From the NCBI GenBank assembly GCA_020845895.1, contig JADLEX010000007.1:1-64000 (forward strand): a stretch of DNA of 64,000 nucleotides, read 5' to 3'. This stretch comes from Deltaproteobacteria bacterium. GTDB taxonomy: Bacteria > Lernaellota > Lernaellaia > JACKCT01. The position numbers and the translations under genes are program-made. Of this stretch, positions 2,664-8,677 are shown in pieces. Under the pieces are notes generated by a model. It was not told where the DNA came from, did not search any database, and worked only from the letters and a program-made list of their open reading frames with translations. Each line of letters starts with the position of its first letter. Position 1 is the first letter of the stretch.

Positions 2664-3069
2664 ATGAGGCCGAAACAAGTAGTAGAAATTCTTGAAACGG
2701 TAATTGCGACGATCGGGGAATCCGAGAAATTTTTCGAGTACTTTGCTCGTGGAATGCACGCGCCAGAGGAAAAAGAATCAAGCGCACTAATTGCGGCAGG
2801 TCTAGATTTTGCCCAAAAATGTGAACGTTTAAAGGACATAGAAGCCGTCGAGCCGGTGCTTCGTAGTTTTGGATTGGATTTGTTGATACACTCCGATCAA
2901 TTAAACCGGGAAATCGGTTCGCTGTATTTTAAAGGAAATAGACCAACAGGTGACGGCCCGCTATTCGCCTGCTATTGGGCATGGGGGACAATGAAGCGTT
3001 CACTTTCATCTTGGAAACATCTAATTATTCCAAGTCATTCTAAACATGAAGAGAAATATGAATTTTTTA
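2664..3069 (+). pseudogene. 5' part of an A+T-rich hypothetical gene interrupted by a transposon
   Basis: This is the N-terminal 135 codons (plus one base) of a gene of unknown function. It starts at an ATG with AAGGAG correctly spaced upstream. Its composition is clearly richer in A+T than the flanking chromosome, which suggests acquisition from elsewhere. The predicted chain is mostly helical and soluble, with no motif I recognise. The frame does not stop at the insertion. It runs through the left inverted repeat to 3299, adding about 75 foreign residues that are antisense to the antitoxin gene. Joining base 3069 directly to 8085 continues the frame exactly to the stop at 8677, giving a 332-residue protein. 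I infer that the intact gene was cut by the transposon. Confidence 0.8.
3062..3069. repeat. Left copy of 8-bp target-site duplication (ATTTTTTA)
   Basis: ATTTTTTA immediately precedes the left inverted repeat and recurs exactly at 8077-8084 after the right one. An 8-bp duplication is the length expected for the IS1595 family. Confidence 0.9.
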
Positions 3070-3092
3070 GGCGATTATGCACTTGGCAAACC
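3070..3092 (+). repeat. Left terminal inverted repeat of the transposon
   Basis: It begins GGCGATTATGCACTTG and ends CAAACC. It matches the reverse complement of 8054-8076 except at its 17th base (G here, A at the right end). Confidence 0.92.
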
Positions 3093-3134
3093 AAGGCCGA
3101 AAACGCGCACGCGGCTCGGTCGCCCGATCTTATC

Positions 3135-3293
3135 TTAGCGCGCCCGCTTCGACTTGCGCTTGCGGCTCGTAGAAGCCCTGCGCGCCTTTGTTTCACGCTC
3201 CGGCCCAACGCCCATCGCTCGGCGCATCAGCGCGTCGAACTCGCCGGGGCCGATCTTAAGGGCGTCACCCTTCTCGGTTTTCTCGGTCTTCAT
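3135..3293 (-). CDS. Small putative antitoxin downstream of a RelE-type toxin
   Basis: This 52-residue protein starts at an ATG that overlaps the toxin stop codon as ATGA, so translation is probably coupled. Its central segment, IGPGEFDALMRRAMGVG, looks like a short amphipathic toxin-wrapping region. The C-terminal third is extremely rich in Lys and Arg (KARRAS...KRKSKRAR). There is no recognisable DNA-binding fold. The role is inferred from order (toxin first, then a small charged protein), overlap and size. It is the last gene of the transposon operon, ending about 40 bases inside the left inverted repeat. It may instead be only a remnant of a longer antitoxin. Confidence 0.65.
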   Translation of the reverse strand: MKTEKTEKGDALKIGPGEFDALMRRAMGVGPERETKARRASTSRKRKSKRAR

Positions 3294-3565
3294 CGGTAGG
3301 CGTCCTTCCTGTTGTCGATGTCCAAGATGACGACCTCCGGAGGGTTGTCGCGGACCTCGTAGATGATCCGATAGTCACCTTGGCGCACGCGGCGCGCTCT
3401 GCCCTCTGCGAACTTCTTGCCTTTGAGTTTTCTGTTCCCCGGCGGGAACGGATTTTTTGCGAGCGCGCGTGCCCTCCTTGATATCTGAGCCCTCATTTTT
3501 CCGGGCTCCATCTTATCCAAAAATGCCTTCGCGGATGGACCGAAGGAAAACCCACAAACCGGCAT
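3290..3565 (-). CDS. RelE/ParE-superfamily toxin
   Basis: This 91-residue protein has the compact RelE-like fold pattern: an N-terminal strand, two helices (SAKAFLDKM...QISRRARALAKNP), then the strand block KLKG...RARRVRQGDYRIIYEV and a final VVILDIDNRKDAY. Members of this family are mostly ribosome-dependent mRNA endonucleases, while the ParE branch poisons gyrase; the sequence alone does not decide. It begins 4 bases after the specificity subunit stop and overlaps the antitoxin start by ATGA. Linkage to a restriction module on a transposon suggests a role in stabilising the element. Confidence 0.85.
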   Translation of the reverse strand: MPVCGFSFGPSAKAFLDKMEPGKMRAQISRRARALAKNPFPPGNRKLKGKKFAEGRARRVRQGDYRIIYEVRDNPPEVVILDIDNRKDAYR

Positions 3566-3569
3566 TTTT

Positions 3570-5105
3570 CTACGACAACCACTGTTTCATGCTCTCTTCA
3601 AGGGCCGGTCCGCGTAATGTCGAATCGGGATCAGCCTCCGCTTCGACGATCCGCAAATCGGCAAGGGCACCGTCGATGTCATCCTCGGAGCCGTCACCTA
3701 TTGCGTTTGCGATGATCGCTTCCATGTAAACGGTAGCGGCGTTTTCGAGATCGTCAGCGATGGCGCGCAATGCGACGGCGCGCTCGGATTTATCCGCGAT
3801 AGCATCCTCGTTTTCTCTTGTGAGCCGTACAACGGGAATTCCGCAAACGTCAGATGGTTCAATATGCGGGATGGACGTTCCGTAACTTGCACGCAAAACC
3901 AGCGGTCGGCCTAAATCCGGGTGCCCCAAGACTGTGAAAAGATAGCCAGGGCGAATTTTCGAGACGTCAGGGATAATGCGGATCAAGTCATCAGAAAAAA
4001 ACGGTGCTTCGTGTGCCTTGGTTGTTAAAACGACACTCCCATTAAGACCATAAATTTGTCCAGACCGGGCCATAACTATCCATCCGGCCTTTACGAAAAA
4101 ACCAGAGACATGAGGACTATTTTTTAGATCGACGCGTTTCTTTACCGGCGGATTTACGGAGAACAGTTCGTTGGCACTAAAATACGCAGTCTCGCCGTCC
4201 TTCGGTGTGCGACTTAGGCGCAAGGGCATCCAAATGCGATCTGTCACGGATTCAAGCGTCTGCGTCTTCAAACCGGCCCTTTCCACTGCCGAGAGAATGG
4301 CAGCGGCCAATGGATTGTAGGAATACGCATCTAATCGACGAGAACCGTGGAAAAGATCACGCCCACGTGCCGGGAAGCCGCTTTCTACAGCCGTAGGATT
4401 GACAGCACCGATCTTATCCGCGTACTGCATTTCCGAATCTAGCAATAGATCGTGTGCCTCATTGCGCAAGGCAAAACAACGACTTACAGCTGCGTTCAAC
4501 ATGTCCCGAACCGTAGATCCAACGGTAATTACAGGAACGTCTTGCAGGTGTTCCACCTCAAGGTGCTTAATCACGTTTCCGTACTTCGTAGATCGCATCA
4601 TTCGACGTGCGAAGTTCGTCCGTAAATAGGCGTACAAATAGCCACAATTTTCGTCTTGCATAGCCACGACACGAAGAAGGTCATGCGAAATAACAATTTC
4701 GTCAAGCGGGCGATACGACATGATCGCATCGCCGACGCTGCCTGAACAGGTTACGAGAATCCACCCGCGTTCAACAAACCGACTAGCCGCGTTCGGCGTG
4801 TGGTCTAAAGCGAGCCATTTCCTAGGGCGCGGTCGAATATCGAAAACCTGCGTCGCTGCAAGGAACGGTTGTCCGTGTTTTTGTGAGACCTGAATTCCTT
4901 TAAGGCGGTCCGGCTGCCAAACCCTTGCAAGCTGGCCTAGCGGCACGCTCCCGATGCGTTCAATTCGACTGCGAAGTGAATACCCTTCCGACAAGTAGTT
5001 TTCGGCCTCAAGCCGCCGACTTCCCCTCAAGATCGAAGACAATGGAATGATGGAAATTTCCGCCTTTGGCGGGACCGTCAACAGTCTTTCGGCGCGCTCG
5101 GTCAT
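3570..5105 (-). CDS. Restriction-modification DNA specificity subunit (HsdS-like)
   Basis: This 511-residue protein has two target-recognition halves. Each carries the typical 'GWI(L/V)...SG' strand: first GWILVTCSGSVGDAIMS with ISHDLLRVV, later GWIVMARSGQIYGLNGS with FSDDLIRII. Each half closes with a conserved-turn segment (YGNVIKHLEVEHLQDVPV; YGTSIPHIEPSDVCGIPVV). The two domains should each read one half of a split recognition site and dock onto the methyltransferase partner. I chose the ATG at 5105, which overlaps the partner's stop as ATGA and has AGGA immediately upstream, over an earlier in-frame start at 5123. The length is somewhat above the usual 400-450 residues of type I S subunits. 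The target sequence cannot be predicted. Confidence 0.88.
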   Translation of the reverse strand: MTERAERLLTVPPKAEISIIPLSSILRGSRRLEAENYLSEGYSLRSRIERIGSVPLGQLARVWQPDRLKGIQVSQKHGQPFLAATQVFDIRPRPRKWLALDHTPNAASRFVERGWILVTCSGSVGDAIMSYRPLDEIVISHDLLRVVAMQDENCGYLYAYLRTNFARRMMRSTKYGNVIKHLEVEHLQDVPVITVGSTVRDMLNAAVSRCFALRNEAHDLLLDSEMQYADKIGAVNPTAVESGFPARGRDLFHGSRRLDAYSYNPLAAAILSAVERAGLKTQTLESVTDRIWMPLRLSRTPKDGETAYFSANELFSVNPPVKKRVDLKNSPHVSGFFVKAGWIVMARSGQIYGLNGSVVLTTKAHEAPFFSDDLIRIIPDVSKIRPGYLFTVLGHPDLGRPLVLRASYGTSIPHIEPSDVCGIPVVRLTRENEDAIADKSERAVALRAIADDLENAATVYMEAIIANAIGDGSEDDIDGALADLRIVEAEADPDSTLRGPALEESMKQWLS

Positions 5106-7072
5106 TCCTGCCCCGCCAGCCAAGAGCGAAATGCGTTTGCAATCTCGCGTGTGTTATCGTCTTCTACCTTGTTCATAGTTTTCTGGCGACGATAAACCGG
5201 ATGCCCGTTGCCGTGTTCCTTGATTAATTCATCCTCCTCTCGAACGATTTCATTCCCATCCGCATCACGAACATAGGTTGTATTTCCGCGCTTGTCATGA
5301 CCTACGTGATTCGCGAGCGACATGAAGACGCTATAGTCGTTCTTTTCCCCTGTTGCGCGTTCCAATGCAATCTCGTCAAAGCGCTTTCGCTGGAGAACAA
5401 GGACGCTCGTTTGCGTCGAATTTCTCGGCTGAAACGTGTCAGGATGAAGGTCGATACTTGCAAGAACTCGCGTATTTGTCAGTATCCATTCACGCACATA
5501 TCCAAGACCCGGAGCCCCTAGAATGCCGTCCGGCAAAACAATGGCGACACGCCCAGTCCCCGGCTTGAGAAAACTCACGCAACGCTCTATCGCCAAGATC
5601 TCCGGTGGTAGCGCTCTTTGGAGCGCAACGGGATTGCGCGGAGAGAATGTGTCAGCGTTATCGTCGTAATCATAAACCTTCGCTATTTCGTACTGTTCAA
5701 GTATCGCCGGGTCGTCTATACGAATTTTGGACCCAAATGGAGGATTGGTGAAAATCAAATCGACTCGCCCCAGAAGATTTCGGCTCCTAAGCTTCTCTTC
5801 CCAGAGAACTGGATTGCCAAGAGAGTTGGCTTGGTACAGCCCCCCCTCTCCGTCATTGTTCATTACCATATTCATCTTTGTTGCGCGTACTAGATTCGGA
5901 TTGAAGTCAAGTCCTACTATTTTCGCATCGCAGTATTCTTTGATGCGTCTAAGTAGTTCCGTTTGCTCCCTTTCTGTTGGGTGTTCCTTGTCACGCCATT
6001 TGCGTGCTTCGGTCACGCGAATTTTTTGAATAACGTGGTTCAGTGCAATAGTGAGAAAGCCGCCTGTCCCGCAAAATGGGTCGAGGATTAAATCGCGCGG
6101 GTCTGGGTCGAGCATTTCGACGGCCATGCGACAGATGTTTCGGGGTGTAAAAAATTCGCCGCGATCCCCGCGCAAATTCGATCCGACGATTTCCTCGTAA
6201 GCTTTCCCCTTTACGTCAATATTCGTATCCAGAAGAAAATACGATTGAAGTTGCGATACGATGTATGCCAAGACGAGCGGAGCCAATTCTATAACTTCAT
6301 TTGGTTTAAAAATCGTACTGTACTTTTCGCGTACGATCGCGAAAATCCCATCGAGCCGTTTTTTTACTTTGAGTTGCCCATTTAAGTTCTGGCGCTCTTG
6401 TGATGTCGCGTAAAACTCAATCTGCTCTGATCGCTCGTCCATGATCTTGCAGAATATAATTTTCAGAAGCTCCCAGAACGCCTCTGGCTTCTGTAGCCCC
6501 TGATTACCGGCGATGTAGTTGTGGCAACGCCGAAACGCAAAAAGAAGGGCGTCACTATTCGCCGGGGAAAGAGATGCCAGCGACGGACGCTCTACGTCAT
6601 CAATGGATCTCCCCTTGGCCGGAATATCGTCAATTGGAGCAAACTCAAACCCTTTGCCGTTTGACACCTTTCGGAAACATTCCCGATTCCCACCATGACC
6701 GTTGGTCCACATCCCGAATTCTGCATTAAGCGACGCCGCAAGATAGCTTTTCAGCTGCTCCACGCCGTCCTCTTTGTCGTTCGGTGAGACGGTTGCGGCC
6801 TTGCATTCTATAAGCGCCCAAGCAGTCTCTTGGCGGTGTGCAGAGCCTTCTGGAAAAACTGCCAAATCAACGCGTTTATTTTTCGACCCTATTTTGATCG
6901 GGAATTCTACCGCGATTTCCTCGCGCAAATACTTGTATTCTCTGACAAGAGACTTTTCGATCTCTTGGCGGACGTACTCCTCCGGTGTTTCCTTGCGAAA
7001 TTTCCGGTCAATAAAGTCAACGACCTTTCCATGTGGAACGATGACCGCTGTGATGGCGGGCGCAGATCCCAT
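5102..7072 (-). CDS. Fused HsdR-N-type nuclease and N6-adenine DNA methyltransferase
   Basis: This is a 656-residue two-domain protein. Residues about 15-150 match the N-terminal nuclease domain of type I R subunits, with a D/E-x-K site visible as VDLAVF (D69) and LIECKA (E89, K91). From about 200 to the end it is an HsdM-like gamma-class N6-adenine methyltransferase. Motifs are FFTPR near 308, the SAM-binding loop DPFCGTGGF near 331, and the catalytic NPPF at about 443-446. No helicase/translocase gene is present. With the adjacent S subunit this resembles type IIB (BcgI-like) enzymes, in which one chain cuts and methylates. I chose the ATG at 7072 because it overlaps the transposase stop as TAATG and places the nuclease domain at the N-terminus; an in-frame ATG at 7102 adds ten residues. 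Whether it cleaves DNA is inferred. Confidence 0.88.
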   Translation of the reverse strand: MGSAPAITAVIVPHGKVVDFIDRKFRKETPEEYVRQEIEKSLVREYKYLREEIAVEFPIKIGSKNKRVDLAVFPEGSAHRQETAWALIECKAATVSPNDKEDGVEQLKSYLAASLNAEFGMWTNGHGGNRECFRKVSNGKGFEFAPIDDIPAKGRSIDDVERPSLASLSPANSDALLFAFRRCHNYIAGNQGLQKPEAFWELLKIIFCKIMDERSEQIEFYATSQERQNLNGQLKVKKRLDGIFAIVREKYSTIFKPNEVIELAPLVLAYIVSQLQSYFLLDTNIDVKGKAYEEIVGSNLRGDRGEFFTPRNICRMAVEMLDPDPRDLILDPFCGTGGFLTIALNHVIQKIRVTEARKWRDKEHPTEREQTELLRRIKEYCDAKIVGLDFNPNLVRATKMNMVMNNDGEGGLYQANSLGNPVLWEEKLRSRNLLGRVDLIFTNPPFGSKIRIDDPAILEQYEIAKVYDYDDNADTFSPRNPVALQRALPPEILAIERCVSFLKPGTGRVAIVLPDGILGAPGLGYVREWILTNTRVLASIDLHPDTFQPRNSTQTSVLVLQRKRFDEIALERATGEKNDYSVFMSLANHVGHDKRGNTTYVRDADGNEIVREEDELIKEHGNGHPVYRRQKTMNKVEDDNTREIANAFRSWLAGQE

Positions 7073-8034
7073 TATTTGCTCCCGACTTTCGGCGCGCGCC
7101 ACATGAGGCGCTTGCCTTCCGATTTTTGAATCCCGATCACCGTCCGCTGTCCGTCGCTCATCTTGCGGGTGTTGTATTTGTGGTCGATCTCCGCAAGGTA
7201 GAGCGAAAGGTGCTGTCGGGAGACGTGGTGGTGCGTCCCGTCCAAGCTCCGCTTCGTGTTCCCGAAAAACCCTTCAACGGTGTTCGTCGTCGCGTGGCGT
7301 CCGGTCTCTGGGTCGCGGCGCGAATACTCTTCGGCTGAATGGTTCACGGTGTCGTGGGACGCGAAGCGCCAAGCAGACGCGAGGTAGGCCGCAGATTCGT
7401 CGGTGTTCAGGTTCGCCGTTGTCGCGACGTGCGAGCGGAGAATCCTGTCCAGCACAGTGCCGGTCACTTTCGGAACGACTTGGGAGCGCACGCGACCTCC
7501 ACGCTCGACAAGCGAAACGACGGCGGTCTTGTTCCCGGTGTAGCGTCGCCCCTTGCCGCGAACCTTTCCGCCGATATAGGTCTCGTCGGCCTCGACCGTG
7601 GCGGATAGCTTATCGACAGGCTCGGCGTCTTTCAAGGCGTAGCGGACCCGGTGGCACAAAAAAAGCGCGGTTCTGTAGGAACCCAACTCCAACTGTCGCT
7701 GAAGCTGGAGCGCCGCGACCTGCGTCTTGCTCGCGCACATCATGTAAAACGCGATGAGCCACTTGTTCAGCGGGATATGGGAGTCTTCCATGACGGTCCC
7801 AACCGTGACCGTGAATTGCTGGCCGCATTCGACGCATTTGCGCAGTCCGGCGCGGACCTTTTTTTTGGGATTGGCTTCGATGTCGTAGATCCGCTTTCTG
7901 TCGTCGTTGCCGCAATGCGGGCAAACCGGGCCGTTCGGCCAGCGGATTTTCTCGAAGTAATCCCGTGCGGCTTCCTCGGTCGAAAACCGCGCCATGATCG
8001 ACATGAGGGTGAGTTCTTCGTTCTTCATCCTCAT
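7072..8034 (-). CDS. IS1595-family (ISXO2-like) transposase
   Basis: This is a 320-residue transposase. The N-terminus has the family zinc ribbon, with C38-x2-C41 (VCPHC) and C67-x2-C70 (KCVEC). It is followed by a helix-rich region and the catalytic core: D150 in EADETYIGG, D212 in NTDESAAY, and E254 in NTVEGFFGNTKR, then HHVS and YN near the end as in ISXO2 proteins. It looks intact and of normal length. The start at 8034 is the longest form, but the likely promoter overlaps it, so initiation at 8028 or 8004 is also possible. It is first in the cargo operon and its stop overlaps the methyltransferase start. Confidence 0.93.
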   Translation of the reverse strand: MRMKNEELTLMSIMARFSTEEAARDYFEKIRWPNGPVCPHCGNDDRKRIYDIEANPKKKVRAGLRKCVECGQQFTVTVGTVMEDSHIPLNKWLIAFYMMCASKTQVAALQLQRQLELGSYRTALFLCHRVRYALKDAEPVDKLSATVEADETYIGGKVRGKGRRYTGNKTAVVSLVERGGRVRSQVVPKVTGTVLDRILRSHVATTANLNTDESAAYLASAWRFASHDTVNHSAEEYSRRDPETGRHATTNTVEGFFGNTKRSLDGTHHHVSRQHLSLYLAEIDHKYNTRKMSDGQRTVIGIQKSEGKRLMWRAPKVGSK

Positions 8035-8063
8035 TTTCTAGCAAAACGCGAAAGGTTTGTCAA
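8035..8063 (-). promoter_or_regulatory. Sigma-70-type promoter inside the right transposon end
   Basis: On the minus strand a consensus -35 TTGACA (8063-8058) lies within the inverted repeat. A 17-base spacer precedes TAGAAA (8040-8035, 4 of 6 to TATAAT). Transcription would start near 8028 and run through transposase and cargo. The only mismatch between the two terminal repeats falls in this -35 box (TTGGCA at the left end). Confidence 0.6.
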
Positions 8064-8076
8064 GTGCATAATCGCC
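8054..8076 (-). repeat. Right terminal inverted repeat of the transposon
   Basis: Read on the minus strand it begins GGCGATTATGCACTTG and pairs with 3070-3092 at 22 of 23 positions. Confidence 0.92.
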
Positions 8077-8084
8077 ATTTTTTA
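8077..8084. repeat. Right copy of 8-bp target-site duplication (ATTTTTTA)
   Basis: ATTTTTTA directly follows the right inverted repeat and is identical to 3062-3069. Confidence 0.9.
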
Positions 8085-8677
8085 AGCTGACAGTTGGTGT
8101 TTCAGAAGATAAATTTGTCACGGTTGTCGATTTCAAGATCGCACTTGAGTCGTTGGAAACAATATATCAAGTATTGTCGAAGCTTTCGCCGACTCAACAT
8201 GTGGAGAATTTCGACATATTTTATGTCGAAAGTGGTTCTAGGATAGAAATTTCACTAAGAGGCCTCAAAGGGGTAGTCGCAGAACTTTCTAAGTTGATTT
8301 TGGATTCGTGGATTAGGATTCGGCACCGAAAGATCGAAGATTCACTTGCAAAAAATGAAGCAATATTAGGCAGTCTTGCTGTTATCGAAAAAATAGATGA
8401 CATGCAACAAAAGGGAAAATTAGAACATGAATCAGCTTTTCAGATGAAGCACGCAATTATAAAGAGCGTGCTTGCGCTATTTGAGGCCGGCGTACTTCCA
8501 AGAGTGGCAAGTGGAAATGAATTGATTGATAACAGAAAATTACTTGAATCGAATAAACCAAAGTTGTTGAATGCGGCACCGCCGGACGGTGACGAAAATA
8601 GTTTAAATAATATTAAGGCAAGCGCAAAATCTCTTCGACGAGGAAAAAAGAAAGCAACGAGTGAAACTATGGAGTGA
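8085..8677 (+). pseudogene. 3' part of the transposon-interrupted A+T-rich hypothetical gene
   Basis: This segment continues the frame broken at 3069. Joined there it reads EFF-KLTVGVSEDKFVTVVDF and runs 197 further codons to the TGA at 8677. Composition matches the 5' fragment. The chain is helical and ends in a Lys/Arg-rich tail (KSLRRGKKKATSE) after a stretch rich in Asn and Lys. A TTG at 8153 could allow a shorter product, but I regard it as the tail of a split gene. The fold and function are unknown to me. Confidence 0.8.

Follow-up and report, generated by a model that had tools for sequence, protein, structure and literature searches.

An IS1595-family cargo transposon whose restriction-modification protein probably carries the antitoxin segment for a RelE-type toxin

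Transporter elements of the IS1595 family of insertion sequences (IS), such as tISCpe8 and MTnSag1, carry passenger genes for lincosamide resistance or mobilisation functions (PMC5704250), and in some transposons of the Tn3 family a toxin-antitoxin (TA) pair is integral while the other passengers vary (PMC7157771). The restriction-modification (RM) genes of PaeR7I have moved with the help of IS elements, and cells that lose an RM system are selected against (PMC3031569). In the RM guardians PrrC, with EcoprrI, and PARIS, a latent toxin responds when the RM enzyme is inhibited (PMC12707154), and CreTA is a TA pair coupled to CRISPR-Cas (PMC12737573). The locus described here lies in a window of 64,000 nucleotides (positions 1 to 64,000 of contig JADLEX010000007.1, assembly GCA_020845895.1, Deltaproteobacteria bacterium), where positions 3070-8076 (5007 bp) hold an IS1595-family transposon with an RM system and a RelE-type toxin as cargo. 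The RM and toxin genes look like one linked unit rather than two neighbouring cargos, because the C-terminus of the RM specificity polypeptide, encoded immediately before the toxin, is an antitoxin-like tail. We consider it probable that the element is a cargo transposon in which an RM-antitoxin chimera holds a RelE toxin in check, that loss or disabling of the chimera would free the toxin, and that the RM body can be swapped.

The element and its operon

The element is bounded by inverted repeats of 23 nt that match at 22 of 23 positions. The repeat at the toxin end, GGCGATTATGCACTTGGCAAACC (3070-3092, plus strand), is shared by relatives, and that at the transposase end, GGCGATTATGCACTTGACAAACC (8054-8076, minus strand), was established by end comparison and genome pattern search. 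An exact 8-bp target duplication, ATTTTTTA, not assigned to a strand, was read directly and found by genome pattern search at 3062-3069 on the left and 8077-8084 on the right. Judged from these marks, the stretch 3070-8076 is a genuine transposition product and a cargo transposon of the IS1595 family. The original prediction had named these repeats and the duplication, a complete IS1595 transposase, the gene junctions and a cargo of RM and toxin genes, and all of this was borne out by direct reading, comparison, profile matches and recurring elements.

The five genes of the element form a single tight operon that is read from the minus strand, with the junctions TAATG, ATGA, a 4-base gap and ATGA in that order. 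A predicted promoter (8035-8063, minus strand), a consensus match with the -35 box TTGACA (8063-8058), a 17-nt spacer and the -10 box TAGAAA (8040-8035), has its -35 box inside the inverted repeat and its -10 box directly before the transposase start. Consensus matching found the same arrangement in nearly all relatives, with a TTGACA-like -35 box at element positions 14-19, within the inverted repeat, and a -10 box just before the transposase. The first gene (7072-8034, minus strand) encodes an IS1595-family transposase of 320 residues that matches NF033547 (182.6 bits, cut-off 75), PF12762 (ISXO2-like DDE, E = 1.7e-33) and PF12760 (zinc ribbon, E = 3.4e-14); a second ATG at 8028 coincides with the start position in relatives. 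Residues D150, D212 and E254, invariant in a 15-row alignment, are the putative catalytic acidic triad.

The second gene (5102-7072, minus strand) encodes a restriction-methyltransferase polypeptide of 656 residues, in which an N-terminal HSDR_N_2 nuclease domain (PF13588, E = 8.6e-23) with D-ExK-type residues (RVDLAV...ALIECKA) is joined to an N6-adenine methyltransferase with the motifs DPFCGTGGF and NPPF. Its best family match was MAD2 and its nearest relative in the PDB was RM.BsaXI (8w0p). The third gene (3570-5105, minus strand) encodes a DNA-specificity (S) subunit of 511 residues that is MAD5-like to about residue 465 and then runs into the tail. The cargo had been predicted to include a methyltransferase, a nuclease and a specificity subunit; the three functions are present, but the nuclease is a domain of the methyltransferase chain and not a separate gene. 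With nuclease and methyltransferase on one chain and a separate S subunit, the layout is that of BcgI/BsaXI-like type IIB enzymes, and on sequence grounds we class the RM part as type IIB-like, with two genes and with MAD2/MAD5 and RM.BsaXI as relatives.

The antitoxin-like C-terminal tail of the S subunit, EDDIDGALADLRIVEAEADPDSTLRGPALEESMKQWLS (3570-3686, minus strand), was delimited by leave-out hidden Markov models (HMMs) and homologue comparison. The toxin gene (3290-3565, minus strand) starts 4 bp after the S subunit gene and encodes a protein of 91 residues of the RelE/ParE superfamily (PF05016, E = 9.8e-9), with RelE and RelG as PDB relatives. The last gene (3135-3293, minus strand) encodes a small basic protein of 52 residues, for which a Pfam search returned no informative match; its relatives have the motif ELRM..EFD.IM..AL, and its role may lie in modulation of the toxin or in nucleic acid binding.

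The tail and the toxin

In 16 of 16 related elements, that of the window included, the RM or specificity polypeptide closes with a tail of ~35 residues of the pattern D..IA..RL.EI...P...V.G..L..RL. This tail lies directly upstream of the toxin and is common to elements whose preceding RM enzymes are unrelated. HMMs were trained without a given RM family and tested on the members of that family and on 1000 shuffled proteins per test. The tail was found at the exact C-terminus of 15 of the 16 elements with scores of 14.7-52.4 bits, the exception being L010 (7.4 bits), and the best shuffled decoy in each test reached 3.6-9.0 bits. Five non-transposon RM homologues, on plasmids of C. glutamicum, A. 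baumannii, Geobacillus, Paenarthrobacter and Tessaracoccus, had no tail by HMM (below zero or no score), and the chain of each stops at the point where the tail would begin. This holds for non-transposon relatives of three RM types, and the MAD5 model likewise ends before the tail.

The association of tail and toxin was then counted at loci outside the HMM training, taken from further RM and toxin scans. The tail was present at five of five RM loci with a toxin (L102, L103, L104, L108 and L143; at L108 it scored only 8.6 bits, yet in register) and at one of 25 RM loci without a toxin (L105). The toxin-less set comprised L105, L106, L107, L111, sixteen MAD-type S subunits, one of which (L188) is cut by a contig end, together with the five homologues on plasmids. 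For these counts Fisher P was 4e-5, or 9e-4 if L108 is treated as tail-less. The tail tracks the toxin, not the transposon, and toxin-less RM relatives are without it. L104 and L108 have RM gene, tail and toxin without transposase, element ends or small protein, implying that the tail-toxin pair is independent of those parts; L106 (1-3460) has an IS1595 transposase followed by an RM enzyme from the family of the single-chain type, with a different C-terminus and neither toxin nor tail. At L156, where no RM gene adjoins, the tail ends a free-standing protein of 68 residues (29.7 bits) whose stop codon overlaps the start of a toxin of this family. C-terminal tail matches of at least 12 bits numbered 45 among 15,972 open reading frames (ORFs), and the toxin was the next gene in 42 of the 45, training loci and duplicates included.

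The tail is probably the toxin-neutralising segment of an antitoxin. In free-standing toxin relatives, Phd/YefM or another antitoxin lies upstream, in the position of the tail. The curated families touched by the tails were PF09720, NQRA_SLBB, the RelB-like NF048017 and TIGR02574 (E = 0.028-0.079), three of which (PF09720, NF048017 and TIGR02574) are antitoxins; these weak profile matches, together with the context, hint at homology between tail and antitoxins. L004 and L017, derivatives that have lost the RM genes, have no intact toxin, which is consistent with the RM protein being the antidote. In the predicted structure of a single-chain RM enzyme (pLDDT 69.8), which best matched type I M, BsaXI and BpuSI, the tail forms a helix-loop-helix, with modest confidence. 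A run of the tail profile over 240 genomes, in search of free antitoxins, gave little but noise, and no PF09720 member was found in the seven genomes of the phylum.

Several observations weigh against these assignments. The single-tail matches to curated antitoxin models are all below cut-offs, and the window element has one of the more divergent tails (16.7 bits in the leave-out test). L156 is the only clear free-standing tail antitoxin found, and its protein is not recognised by Pfam. A small HMM of Phd tails did not retrieve the RM tails above decoys, and hhalign gave P = 0.002 but a probability of 13%. The Fisher counts take related MAD-type loci as independent, and L105 has a tail without a toxin, in a locus that looks decayed and whose RM gene is frameshifted. 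The small downstream protein is kept in 16 of 16 elements and could be a co-antitoxin. As for transposition, the IS1595 transposase occurs in a single copy in the whole 4.98-Mb assembly, which leaves current mobility unproven, and matching duplications are absent at L014, L016 and L018.

The alternative that survives best, although we hold it to be unlikely, is that the RM and TA genes are independent passengers, with the 52-residue protein as an antitoxin in reversed order and the tail used otherwise, for example in subunit contact. Reversed gene order occurs in some TA systems. The small protein is basic, its gene overlaps the toxin gene by 4 bp where the two are separate, and five elements (L009, L010, L018, L019 and L020) have a single ORF that encodes toxin and small protein as an in-frame fusion. 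The predicted structure of the fusion from L020 (pTM 0.54) showed a RelE fold, in a model that does not resolve how the small protein binds. However, L104 and L108 keep tail and toxin without the small protein, free-standing toxin relatives have their antitoxin upstream with no counterpart of the small protein seen downstream, in L156 a free-standing protein with the tail occupies the place of an antitoxin, and toxin-less RM relatives have no tail. Because it is missing from the tail-and-toxin loci L104 and L108, the 52-residue protein is probably accessory and not the main antitoxin. Of the RelE-type toxin pair in the original prediction, the toxin therefore stands, but its downstream partner is probably not the antitoxin.

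It is more doubtful still that the tail is a mere recombination boundary, or a translational-coupling segment for the exchange of RM cassettes, with no antitoxin role. In almost every element a few bp separate the RM stop from the toxin start, and the DNA identity of L014 and L028, which is 84% up to bp 1026 and nil across the RM genes, is regained with the first codon of the tail (bp 3679); both facts would fit such a segment. However, the tail is conserved as protein between elements that have no detectable DNA similarity there, purifying selection acts on most tail regions (pN/pS 0.2-0.5), the tail is found on a 68-residue protein without any RM enzyme, and the curated families matched were mainly antitoxins.

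A partial methylation-associated defence system (MADS) picked up by an insertion sequence would account for the 629.5 bits of the 656-residue chain against MAD2 and the 264.4 bits of the S subunit against MAD5, but it is a very improbable origin. Both scores are under the curated cut-offs (720 and 400, respectively), the remaining genes of the element matched no other mad family, on plasmids and viral contigs the relatives have the appearance of RM loci with two genes, and the MAD5 model and the relatives stop before the tail.

Related elements and the insertion site

Scanning of genome and viral contigs and of same-phylum genomes brought together at least 16 related elements, counting that of the window, with transposases 61-72% identical to the window's. 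The transposase, an RM enzyme with N6-methyltransferase, the RelE toxin and the small basic protein are present in the same order in 16 of 16. Many of the relatives are metagenome-derived contigs, and their records include Pseudolabrys, Acetobacteraceae, Acidocella, Erythrobacter, Verrucomicrobia and Sulfopaludibacter. Some of the 16 are incomplete: L012 has only the end of the transposase, L009 and L012 have one element end each, the right end of L029 is decayed, and the specificity part of L006 is split. The cargo is not unique to the locus in the window: the search for copies with the same cargo yielded 15 further elements, with an exchangeable RM slot. The expected co-occurrence of ends with perfect 8-bp duplications was seen at L004, L005, L006, L008, L010, L015, L017, L019 and L028.

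Unrelated RM enzymes are found in elements whose transposases are 83-91% identical. L014 and L028 share 91% identity in the transposase and 80% in the toxin, and their RM chains are 25% identical over 361 residues; for L005 and L028 the values are 85% and 83%, with 25% over 310 residues in the RM enzyme. The transposase of L029 is nearest to that of L007 (73%), and its RM enzyme is nearest to that of the window (59%). As read from these comparisons, the RM slot is exchangeable between elements. At L143 (2355-5494), which is without the left part of the element, an HsdM-like ORF and an HsdS-type specificity protein ending in the tail are followed by the toxin, the small protein and the right end. 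The transposase, RM and toxin genes are under purifying selection (pN/pS 0.10-0.34).

Two derivatives are without the RM genes. L004, from the same phylum, is a deletion derivative that keeps only the toxin end, the small protein and a gene with an NYN domain (PF01936; 565-1155), and a remnant of an RM start suggests that it formerly carried a single-chain RM enzyme. L017 keeps nothing but an ORF resembling the small protein. Among the sampled genomes (385 alphaproteobacterial, 396 acidobacterial and 388 verrucomicrobial, the acidobacterial search being without a positive control), no element was found beyond the centre genomes, the one alphaproteobacterial genome with an element in 385 being the centre genome itself. 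Because of this result the clade is taken as rare, and it is widely scattered; its transposase almost always comes with an RM system and a RelE-type toxin in one operon. The best transposases on plasmids are 47% and those on phages 28-29% identical, with no close relatives there, and the flanks on viral contigs gave few matches to PHROGs.

Other cargo was also noted. Between its small protein and its right end, L012 has an extra gene (3217-3603) with a DCD (Development and Cell Death) domain (PF10539), whose fold is EVE-like and of the kind that binds modified bases. Possibly also a carrier of RM cargo is L046 (7938-11383), a distant IS1595 element (33% transposase identity), in which an unrelated methyltransferase of the N4/N6 type (PF01555) is accompanied by a second ORF; here the ends match less well (14/20) and the duplication is of low complexity. 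L030 (2725-5962) and L031 (1500-4543) are distant IS1595 elements (38-39%) with exact duplications, perfect 20-bp ends and other cargo. L035 (8891-9688) and L039 (1755-2531) are small IS1595 elements whose second gene, judged by eye, is a candidate PAPS-reductase-like gene.

Concerning the insertion site, a pattern search of the whole 4.98-Mb assembly found no element ends besides these two, and among 200 mononucleotide shuffles of the region only two pairs combined an exact 8-bp repeat with ends matching at 15 or more of 23 positions. The flanks hold the two parts of a plus-strand ORF, the 5' part at 2664-3069 and the 3' part at 8085-8677, which are in frame after removal of the element and one duplication. 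Since the joined flanks reopen an ORF of 335 codons (138 from the left and 196 from the right), compared with 38 codons in the next best frame, the element evidently interrupted a gene; the empty site sought in the original prediction was in this way recovered from the window's own flanks. Neither of the two outcomes named there as contrary to the transposon reading came about. The target gene was probably itself acquired, because the GC content of the interrupted ORF is 41%, compared with 64% for the window; that of the element is 53%. An assembly artefact or chance ends, for which nothing was found in favour, can be dismissed as scarcely conceivable: the ends, the duplications, the operon and the ORF of the empty site are all in accord, and 15 other elements on unrelated contigs have the same layout. 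Upstream of the element, the window contains dispersed and tandem short repeats (1675-1932 and 2089-2210), among them a 31-nt unit, CCGAGATCGGTATTGTGTCCCCGGAACTCCC, that occurs in two identical copies, and a 61-nt tandem pair.

Proposed mechanism and comparison with known systems

In the mechanism proposed, transposase, RM proteins and toxin would be expressed from one operon, with the -35 box of its predicted promoter in the inverted repeat. As long as intact RM protein is made, its tail would keep the RelE toxin inactive. If the element were lost, or the RM protein broken, degraded or displaced, the toxin would be freed and translation would stop. The element would as a consequence be addictive, and the toxin would guard the RM enzyme. 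Since tail, toxin and transposase form a constant frame, the RM body between them could be swapped, giving the defence a new DNA specificity. The sequences give strong evidence for the transposition scar, the operon and its recurrence, the exchange of RM genes, and a separate tail module that goes with the toxin and also ends a free-standing protein. Binding of the toxin by the tail, toxicity, RM activity and a guarding or addictive role are what we infer from gene arrangement and sequence.

Beyond this locus, the balance of the evidence leans towards RM enzymes that double as antitoxins, a portable segment of ~35 residues having been grafted onto the C-terminus of at least five unrelated RM architectures and the guard cassette being spread by an IS1595 clade. 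On a similarly tempered estimate, these would comprise single-chain enzymes of several kinds, the window's type IIB-like enzyme with its two genes, and the HsdM/HsdS-like remnant in L143; a RelE toxin beside each would monitor whether the RM protein is intact. There is a good chance that the RM-antitoxin chimera is a new class; no description of such chimeras or of RM-carrying IS1595 transposons was found in the open-access literature, subscription papers and preprints being outside its reach. If the proposal is correct, a translation toxin would be set free automatically whenever the RM enzyme was lost or inhibited, so that addiction and guarding would reside in one polypeptide and RM and TA biology would be linked at the protein level. 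It would explain why a small transposon retains a costly RM cargo, and it would permit a direct test of toxin guarding against anti-restriction proteins. The constant frame of transposase, tail and toxin would then be a natural case of modular exchange of DNA specificity.

Compared with known systems, the element resembles tISCpe8 and MTnSag1 in its IS1595 transposase, inverted ends near 25 bp, target duplication and passengers between the ends, but differs from them in having RM and toxin genes in one operon with the transposase. With TA-carrying Tn3 transposons it shares a constant, here putative, TA pair amid changing passengers, whereas the Tn3 transposase is unrelated, the antitoxins there are conventional and separate, and there is no RM chimera. 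The RM genes of PaeR7I are external to the IS; here they are part of the transposon. The nuclease-methyltransferase chain and separate S subunit are like those of the type IIB enzyme BsaXI (8w0p) and of MAD2/MAD5, which have neither the extra C-terminal tail nor the adjoining toxin. RelBE and PF09720 modules (1wmi, 9g12 and 3g5o) share the toxin fold and, in the place of the antitoxin-like tail, have an upstream antitoxin that neutralises through its C-terminus; their antitoxin is small and DNA-binding, whereas the antitoxin-like segment here ends an RM or specificity protein. CreTA repression is RNA-based and exerted by Cascade; there a defence system silences a toxin, as the RM protein would here, but no protein tail is involved. 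In presumed function, by analogy, the element parallels PrrC and PARIS, in which a toxin responds to RM inhibition. PrrC, however, belongs to a type IC locus and acts as an anticodon nuclease, whereas the window element combines a RelE-fold toxin with a putative antitoxin segment inside the RM polypeptide and is borne on a transposon.

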